DNA of 64,000 nucleotides, taken from NCBI GenBank assembly GCA_947066815.1, contig CAMSZT010000002.1:1-64000 (forward strand). The letters are read 5' to 3'. The DNA comes from an uncultured Lachnotalea sp. (lineage in GTDB: Bacteria; Bacillota; Clostridia; Lachnospirales; Lachnospiraceae). The translations under genes were made by a program, and so were the position numbers. This document shows positions 7,123-53,330 of this stretch, one piece after another. The notes below the pieces were generated by a model. That model did no database searches and was not told the DNA's origin. It worked only from the letters and a program-made list of their open reading frames with translations. Positions within the stretch are counted from its first letter, which is position 1; each line of letters opens with the position of its first letter.

Positions 7123-7569
7123 ATGGAAGTTGTATTATTGGAGGATGTAAAGTCCCTGGGGAAAAAGGGAGATGTCGTAAAAGTAAACGACGGGTATGCG
7201 AGGAACTTTATTTTGCCGAAGAAGCTCGGGGTGGAAGCCAACGCAAAGAACCTGAACGACCTGAAGCTCCAGCAGGCCCACGCGGACAAGGTGGCGGCGG
7301 AGCAGCTCGCCGCGGCGAAGGAGTTTGCGGTGAAGCTTGCGGACTGCACCGTGGAGCTGGCGGTGAAATCCGGCGAGGGCGGGAAGGTGTTCGGCTCTGT
7401 CTCCACCAAGGAGATCGCCGCGGCGGCAAAGGAACAGTACGGCATGGAGCTGGATAAGAAGAAACTGCAGATCGCGGAGCCCATCAAGGCCCTCGGGACC
7501 TATGAGGTGCAGGTGAAGCTCCACCGGGAGGTGACGGCCAAACTGAAGGTCCACGTGACGGAGGCGTAA
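7123..7569 (+). CDS. rplI: 50S ribosomal protein L9
   Basis: [39 protein letters not shown]. Confidence 0.98.
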
Positions 7570-7576
7570 AAGAGAC

Positions 7577-7791
7577 AAGGTAATTGCGAAACCGCAAAAT
7601 GTGGGAAGGATTCTGACAATTGCATCCAGGAAAAGCCCTCTGCGCCATGGAAAGGAGACCATGGAAAACGGGAGGGCCTCTGCCCGACTGTTTTCTGCGC
7701 TTATGGGCTCCTTGGAATGGTTGGCGCTGCAGGCTTTGGATGGATCAATTGTCAGAATCCACTCGACAATTCCACGTTTCGCAATTACCTG
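7577..7791. repeat. Palindromic intergenic element, copy A (MITE-like)
   Basis: TIR AGGTAATTGCGAAAC/GTTTCGCAATTACCT (15/15); inner arms GGATTCTGACAATTG/CAATTGTCAGAATCC; flanked by direct repeat TAAAAGAGAC (7567-7576 and 7792-7801); related to 24351-24536 and 53114-53330. Confidence 0.85.
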
Positions 7792-7844
7792 TAAAAGAGA
7801 CGGTAGAAAGGCGGCCCCGGAGCGGGTGCGGTAAGGAGGACTTC

Positions 7845-9176
7845 ATGGAGGAGGCGCTGATCAGGCGGATACAGCCACACAGCATCGAGGCGGAGCAGTC
7901 GGTTGTGGGCGCCATGCTGATGGACCGGGACGCCATCGTCACGGCGGTGGAGATCATCCACGCCGATGATTTTTATGACAGGCGGTTCGGCACGGTCTTC
8001 GAGGCCATGGTGGAGCTGTATACGGAGGGGAAACCGGTGGATCTGGTGACCCTCCAGGAGCGCCTGCGGGAAAAGAAGGCGCCGCCGGAGATCGGCAGCG
8101 TGGAGTTCCTGCGGGAGCTTATCGCAGGGGTCTCCATCTCGGCCAACGCCAGGCAGTATGCCCTTATCGTCTATGAGAAGGCGATGCTCCGCAGGCTGAT
8201 CCGGGCCGGAGAGGAGATTGCCGACGAATGCTATGCGGCCTCGGAGCCCCTGGATACGATCCTGGAGGAGACGGAAAAAAAGATCTTTGAGCTCCTCAAA
8301 AACCGGGGCAGCGGCGATTTTACGCCCATCCGGCAGATCGTCCTGGACACGCTGGAGCGGATCGAGAAGGCGTCGAGGAATAAGAGCGCCATCACCGGGA
8401 TCCCCACCGGGTTTACGGATCTGGACCAGAAGCTTTCCGGGCTGCAGCCCTCGGACCTGGTGCTGGTGGCAGCCCGTCCGTCCATGGGGAAGACGGCCTT
8501 TGTGCTGAACATTGCCCAGTATGTGGCTCTCCGGAAGGACTATACGACGGCGATCTTCAGCCTGGAGATGTCAAAGGAACAGCTGGTGAACCGTCTGTTT
8601 TCCATGGAATCCAGGGTGGATTCCATGGCCCTTCGGACCGGAAACCTGTCGGATTCCGACTGGGAGAAGCTGGTGGAGAGCGTGGGGGTCATCGGAAATT
8701 CCAGGCTGATCATCGACGATACGCCCGGCATTTCCGTGTCGGAGCTGCGTTCCAAGTGCAGGAAATTCAAGCTGGAGTTCGGCCTGGACCTGGTCATCAT
8801 CGATTATCTGCAGCTGATGTCCGGCAGCAGGAGGAATTCGGACAACCGGCAGCAGGAGATCTCGGAGATCTCCCGTTCTTTAAAAGGGCTTGCCAGGGAG
8901 GTGGGGGCCCCGGTCATCGCCCTGTCCCAGCTCTCCCGCGCGGTGGAGAGCCGCAACGACAAACGGCCCATGCTCTCGGACCTTCGGGAATCCGGTGCCA
9001 TCGAGCAGGACGCCGACGTGGTCATGTTCATCTACCGGGACGACTACTACAATAAGGACACGGAAAACCCCAACATTGCGGAGATCATCATCGCAAAGCA
9101 GAGGAACGGCCCCACGGGGACGGTGAACCTGGTGTGGCTGCCGGACTATACCAAATTTGTCAATATGGAGAAATAG
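7845..9176 (+). CDS. dnaB: Replicative DNA helicase DnaB
   Basis: MEEALIRRIQPHSIEAEQSVVGAML..., Walker A ARPSMGKTAF; start chosen after RBS aaggagg (the ORF extension to 7620 lies in the repeat). Confidence 0.97.
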   Translation: MEEALIRRIQPHSIEAEQSVVGAMLMDRDAIVTAVEIIHADDFYDRRFGTVFEAMVELYTEGKPVDLVTLQERLREKKAPPEIGSVEFLRELIAGVSISANARQYALIVYEKAMLRRLIRAGEEIADECYAASEPLDTILEETEKKIFELLKNRGSGDFTPIRQIVLDTLERIEKASRNKSAITGIPTGFTDLDQKLSGLQPSDLVLVAARPSMGKTAFVLNIAQYVALRKDYTTAIFSLEMSKEQLVNRLFSMESRVDSMALRTGNLSDSDWEKLVESVGVIGNSRLIIDDTPGISVSELRSKCRKFKLEFGLDLVIIDYLQLMSGSRRNSDNRQQEISEISRSLKGLAREVGAPVIALSQLSRAVESRNDKRPMLSDLRESGAIEQDADVVMFIYRDDYYNKDTENPNIAEIIIAKQRNGPTGTVNLVWLPDYTKFVNMEK

Positions 9177-24216: not shown

Positions 24217-24350
24217 GGCTGGTTTCCTCCTTATGTCTGGGGGCCGGTCCGGAACTATGTCCAGGTACCGGTTCTGTGTCTGGTGTGACGGCGTTTCCGG
24301 GCGGGAGTGTGAACTGCTGGACCGGGTATCCGTACTCGACGGACAGCTGT

Positions 24351-24536
24351 CGAATATTCTGACAATATTTCCGGTAAAAGCCCTCTGCGCCGTGGAAGCA
24401 AGACCAGAGAAGGCAGGAGGAACTCTTTTTCGAGTGACTTCTGCGGTTCTGGGCTTGCTGGAATGTTTGGGGCTGCAGGCTTTGGACGGACAAATTGTCA
24501 GGATATTCCTGCAATTTTACCTTTCGCAGTTACTTA
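24351..24536. repeat. Palindromic intergenic element, copy B (degenerate left end)
   Basis: Shares AAAAGCCCTCTGCGCC, GGAAGCAAGACCAGAGAAGGCAGGAGG, GACTTCTGCGGTTCTGGGCTTGCTGGA, CTGCAGGCTTTGGACGGA with copies A/C; GAATATTCTGACAAT pairs ATTGTCAGGATATTC. Confidence 0.8.
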
Positions 24537-53113: not shown

Positions 53114-53330
53114 CAGGTAATTGCGAAACCGAAAAATCTTGGAAAGGATTCTGACGGTTGCTTCCGGGAAAAGCCCTCTGCGCCGCGGAAGCAAGACCAG
53201 AGAAGGCAGGAGGGACGAATCCCGAGTGACTTCTGCGGTTCTGGGCTTGCTGGAGCGTTTGGCGCTGCAGGCTTGGGACGGACGCAGCCGTCAGAAGCCG
53301 CTCTATAATCTGGTGTTTCGCAATTACCTG
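53114..53330. repeat. Palindromic intergenic element, copy C (MITE-like)
   Basis: TIR CAGGTAATTGCGAAAC / GTTTCGCAATTACCTG (16-mer ends); flanking AGTAAATGGA (53104-53113) and GGTAAATGGT (53331-53340), 8/10 identical. Confidence 0.85.

Follow-up and report, generated by a model that had tools for sequence, protein, structure and literature searches.

How did a palindrome of 215 bp that holds no gene come to lie between rplI and dnaB in an uncultured Lachnotalea sp., and what, if anything, does it do there? That insertion sequences can move MITEs is well established (PMC6382973, PMC3049150), and the earlier note on this DNA had proposed such an element, with 15-bp terminal inverted repeats, perfect 10-bp direct repeats at its flanks, a single hairpin fold and no transposase reading frame inside. 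Each of these claims was borne out when the sequence and its reading frames were inspected and the fold was compared to shuffles. The window, by which we mean the whole stretch of 64,000 nucleotides analysed, contains the following features.

7123-7569, plus strand: rplI, intact.
7567-7576, no strand: left target-site duplication TAAAAGAGAC, its first three bases being the rplI stop codon.
7577-7791, plus strand: complete MITE copy, with 1 bp of uncertainty in its boundary.
7578-7592, plus strand: left terminal inverted repeat AGGTAATTGCGAAAC, matching the end of IS1182-like elements exactly.
7640-7729, plus strand: core module with a conserved fold, at the tip of the hairpin (83.3 bits with the core-only model R2; covariation).
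7776-7790, minus strand: right terminal inverted repeat, GTTTCGCAATTACCT as read at 7776-7790.
7792-7801, no strand: right target-site duplication TAAAAGAGAC.
7806-7811, plus strand: putative target motif GAAAGG, with its GG at 19 nt from the end of the element.
7832-7839: dnaB Shine-Dalgarno sequence TAAGGAGG, distinct from the GAAAGG at 7806-7811.
24323-24536, plus strand: third copy in the window, left end degenerate.
53114-53330, plus strand: second copy in the window, its site empty in G007.

The terminal inverted repeats of the rplI-dnaB element matched at 15/15 bp. Its flanking repeat has an alternative reading of 11 bp (GTAAAAGAGAC, 7566-7576 and 7791-7801), and it is these two readings that leave the boundary uncertain. 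Since the left copy of the duplication opens with the TAA stop of rplI, that gene is unbroken; dnaB starts at 7845. The whole element folds as one hairpin of -110 kcal/mol compared to -63 +/- 4.5 for shuffled sequences (z = -10.4; 0/200 shuffles as good), and no transposase gene was present in its 215 bp by inspection of sequence and reading frames. There is a 57-codon frame (7661-7834) with an RBS-like start, AAAGGAG followed by the ATG at 7661, that ends inside the dnaB Shine-Dalgarno region. A coding role was rejected, as the frame is not conserved in other copies and the ATG is absent from a second subfamily and from other genera. Viral contigs gave no exact match, so phage carriage was not supported.

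The element belongs to a family with about 40 copies in its own genome (G000), where 59 stretches matched, some of them second-strand matches to a palindrome or fragments of one copy. Matches numbered 65 in G007, the closest relative, whose RplI is 95% identical to that of the window, and 58 in G010; there were none in eight other members of the genus. Duplications of 9-13 bp flanked 30 of the 69 full-length copies, compared to 0.5% when flanks were swapped (p 4e-50; duplications counted at a score of 7 or more, with one copy, L085, drawn from another genus). Target duplications are not expected of a REP/BIME with RAYT system. Truncated copies also exist, as does a separate subfamily of about 63 bp. 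The 63-bp copies were considered as empty outer elements whose interior was separately mobile, an idea that was dropped because some short copies are deletion derivatives and others form the distinct subfamily. Copies were also seen in pairs or clusters about 10-30 bp apart, in the same or opposite orientation (L006, L065, L072, L118, L133, L138).

We compared insertion sites among relatives. The genes rplI and dnaB are closely spaced, without insert, in G001, G004, G005, G006, G008, G009 and G010 (G002 and G003, with these loci on the other strand, are left out of this comparison), and the empty site of G010 has a single, diverged copy of the target. G007 retains a 55-bp remnant between imperfect duplications, which makes the insertion older than the divergence of G007 and the window's species; whether G007 lost the interior or G000 gained it is left undecided by the data. 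At the second window site G007 is empty and G010 has an element of another subfamily at the same place. The empty-site alleles and duplication-flanked copies that the earlier note had proposed to look for were therefore both found. These results bear on the possibility that the hairpin is a regulatory RNA, an attenuator or riboswitch, recruited by the rplI-dnaB operon and not a mobile repeat. Its position inside the operon and very strong fold are what such an RNA would have, but G007 has only the remnant, the other relatives shown have nothing, and dozens of copies lie at unrelated genes; we consider this origin very improbable.

An autonomous insertion sequence with matching ends, which the earlier note had wanted sought, was found in G007 and G328, not in the window's own draft genome. 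This parent insertion sequence is about 1.75 kb long, has an IS1182-like transposase and the same 15-base end, and makes duplications of at least 10 bp. The complete genome G328 has an element of 1745 bp that encodes a transposase of 487 aa, is flanked by duplications of 10-12 bp and terminates on the right in the exact end AGGYRATTGCGAAAC. A relative of this element in G007, from the same genus as the window, shares that right end and has an open frame of 494 aa, with no clear duplication around the element. Duplications of parent-type insertion sequences spanned 10-13 bp, and the ends TAGGCGTTTGCGAAACGCC...GTTTCGCAATTACCTA were common to many copies in other genera. Across the family the exact end was present in 82/397 genomes and the transposase in 39/397; the end occurred in 28 of the 39 carriers compared to 54 of the 358 others (p 3e-13), an association that is partly trivial because the insertion sequences themselves carry the end. 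The transposase was not found in the window's draft genome at E <= 0.001, which makes present mobility in this strain doubtful. In G328 a tandem pair of insertion sequences (L180:2136-5634) was seen, each flanked by CTATAGTAAT, as if a duplicated target had been reused.

The transposase met the Pfam threshold for DUF772 and fell just under that for DDE_Tnp_1. Its likeness to the IS1182 family lies in its best NCBIfam score, 82.8 bits, which is far under the cut-off of 270, so the family name is only approximate. IS1272, which is assigned to the IS1182 family, inserts by replacing inverted repeats, without duplicating its target (PMC5678879), whereas the parent family here duplicates at least 10 bp upstream of GAAAGGAG and does not meet that description of an inverted-repeat target without duplication. 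Because the ends are shared, duplications occur and the insertion sequence is present in the same genus, we infer that the element was moved in trans by an IS1182-like transposase, although movement was not observed. The interpretation as a MITE that transposes non-autonomously thus gained support from copies flanked by duplications, from empty sites and from an insertion sequence that shares its ends. Bacterial MITEs mobilised in trans, such as MITEAba12 (PMC6382973), are similarly short and geneless, with inverted ends, duplications and a parent with matching ends; the present element differs in its fixed Shine-Dalgarno spacing and in a core common to many genera.

Neither that spacing nor the wider distribution of the core had been mentioned in the first description of the locus. 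In a histogram of 92 distinct MITE sites, which include some orthologous sites in different genomes, GGAG clustered, to the left or the right of the element, 18-21 nt from its end. A Shine-Dalgarno-like 5-mer lay at offset 14-22 in 74/92 sites, compared to 4-8 in control windows of equal size, and the motif was absent at that distance from the other 18. Aligned target sites gave the consensus GAAAGGAG. The rule was repeated in other genera, with the motif at offset 14-22 in 28/74 outward element flanks and in 0-2 for other windows; the ceiling is about half of outward flanks, since only one end per insertion faces the motif. Copies in G000 and G007 that do not overlap a called gene lay between co-directional genes in 61/65 cases, typically 26-41 nt upstream of the start codon, and insertion sequences in other genera were mostly about 30 nt upstream of start codons. 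Insertion is non-random and occurs at a fixed spacing to GAAAGGAG.

The same placement could in principle arise if insertion were random and selection retained only copies in short gaps within operons, downstream of a stop codon and upstream of a Shine-Dalgarno sequence, with no recognition of a target. That nearly all copies are intergenic is what one would expect if genic insertions were lost. Selection of this kind predicts broad distances, however, whereas most sites fall at 18-21 nt, and of the window's intergenic bases, a small sample with simple gene calls, only 4.8% belong to co-directional gaps of 10-70 bp. The target motif is also unlike the average host Shine-Dalgarno sequence: GAAA precedes the GG at 49% of sites compared to 18% of host Shine-Dalgarno regions (p 2e-5), and the G that follows GGAG in 63% of host sequences is not favoured at target sites (32%). 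Finally, full 1.75-kb insertion sequences obey the same spacing rule. Random insertion with later selection therefore seems a poor explanation, if not one that can be dismissed. At rplI-dnaB the motif amounts only to the GAAAGG at 7806-7811, which weakens the case; it is not the dnaB Shine-Dalgarno sequence, and this separation favours the reading of a DNA motif. That the transposase recognises GAAAGGAG as DNA is nevertheless an inference; spacing alone has been demonstrated.

Other small repeats offer partial parallels. The pneumococcal BOX, RUP and SPRITE repeats are likewise small, structured and intergenic, are thought parasitic and form co-transcribed hairpins, but they are enriched between convergent genes (PMC3049150), the reverse of the co-directional setting found here. 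The bcr1 and other stem-loop repeat families (PMC2267715) resemble the present one in size, intergenic position and conserved secondary structure; bcr1 comes from a different host group.

Taken jointly, a MITE, an IS1182-like transposase, placement about 20 nt upstream of the GG of GAAAGGAG, a folded tip and a hairpin in the operon transcript make up the explanation that we favour, at a probability of roughly 80%. Under this explanation the IS1182-like transposase would move the non-autonomous element through the shared ends, and the duplicated target of 10-11 bp would be placed about 20 nt upstream of the GG in a GAAAGGAG-like motif. Because GAAAGGAG is mainly the Shine-Dalgarno sequence of a gene, insertions land in leaders or in gaps within operons, leaving intact both the upstream stop codon and the downstream ribosome-binding site. 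At this locus the element would be co-transcribed with rplI and dnaB, giving a strong hairpin ahead of the dnaB leader that would most likely uncouple rplI from dnaB and offer an RNase or processing site; both steps are inferred without RNA data. Sense copies outnumbered antisense copies by 44 to 17 when orientation was taken from gene calls (p 0.0007) and by 43 to 26 when it was taken from the motif (p 0.053), an excess compatible with a role of the transcribed strand but no proof of one.

We also examined the hairpin interior. Among 60 copies, the inner 49 pairs were 96.2% standard, with changes on both sides in 23/49, and interior pairing beat all shuffle and slide controls. Tree inference gave 53 double changes from one Watson-Crick pair to another, although mosaic copies may inflate substitution counts in the interior. 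The earlier note had allowed for a structured RNA: its central part does have a conserved, covarying fold, while neither transcription nor function has been established. Rfam (4227 models) gave no match at the window site, and over the core of seven related loci its matches were either at chance level or to the hairpin alone.

The full-element model matched in 15/348 genomes of the family, the weakest of these, G166, appearing to have a different interior. Because long hairpins could score on pairing alone, the core-only model R2 was built from the cores of these matches. The central 90 nt then had covariance-model matches in about 15 genera, at the tips of unrelated inverted repeats. Copies by R2 numbered 30 in G000, 39 in G007, 96 in G010, 68 in G116, 50 in G328, 52 in G185, 15 in G207 and 8 in G105, with none in G001 or G003; among 379 genomes sampled across the phylum, under stricter filters, the window's own genome alone matched. 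Across genera 97.0% of core cells were paired and double changes occurred in 25/28 pairs, in an alignment that was fitted to the structure and is thereby biased towards it.

The arms around this core differ. They are MITE arms with terminal inverted repeats in the window's genus and in G185, those of another repeat family in G328, and in G116 near-perfect arms of about 87-139 bp that differ in each copy; core copies without terminal repeats occur in G010 and G007. Different arms around a shared core make the core a module common to unrelated palindromes. The second repeat family of G328 (L306, L316, L325, L382-L387, L404-L406), with the same core and other arms (GCTGAATTGTA...), shares its genome with intact IS1182-like elements. 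The G116 cores examined (L326-L330, L368-L381) sit at the tips of palindromes whose arms run to about 90-160 bp, and some of these arms overlap open frames; the origin or upkeep of the arm complementarity is unexplained, and a contig fold-back artefact is unlikely, since the arms are bounded. In G010 core units recur in tandem about every 170 bp, without terminal inverted repeats (L134:310-697). In G324 a TwoAYGGAY RNA (RF01731, 89.6 bits, above the gathering score) lies about 1 kb from a core copy (L297:2659-2819), with no evident relation.

Covariation could partly reflect arm-to-arm copying in palindromes or recombination between copies and not selection. In its strong form this makes the interior a by-product of the palindrome, its arms copying each other at replication and its paired changes without function. 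Two observations are as this would have it, namely the G116 arms that are near-perfectly complementary within copies yet different between them, and the rarity of G-U pairs relative to double changes in the cross-genus core. Such copying would, however, erase the internal-loop and bulge bases of the core, yet GGA/GGA and GAC..GGC are constant across genera. Tree-inferred changes on one strand also led to G-U more often than to A-C (76 to 40). Unpaired columns themselves show an excess of C-to-T, yet in them A-to-G and T-to-C are balanced the opposite way, so this strand signal is suggestive only. We regard the by-product explanation as rather unlikely, while keeping it in play. The core could be an RNA, a signal in single-stranded DNA or an independently mobile unit, and the choice is undecided. 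It is a candidate new class of structured RNA or DNA, present dozens of times in a genome.

A search of open-licence titles and abstracts found no insertion sequence that targets Shine-Dalgarno sequences, and within the open-licence literature the combination of a mobile hairpin, Shine-Dalgarno-spaced targets and a widespread core was not found described, although a prior description is not excluded. The broader proposal is that this transposase family reads the host Shine-Dalgarno consensus at a fixed distance and is thereby guided into translation leaders, and that its MITEs carry an undescribed structured class, found in about 15 genera of Lachnospiraceae on the tips of unrelated inverted repeats and acting in mRNA or in mobility; we offer it tentatively, at somewhat less than even odds. 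Targeting predicts that the GG of the motif lies about 20 nt from the insertion point. Transposons that recognise a safe address and spare their host are few and instructive, and targeting of a ribosome-binding motif, if true, would account for the entry of small hairpins into operons with the genes left intact.
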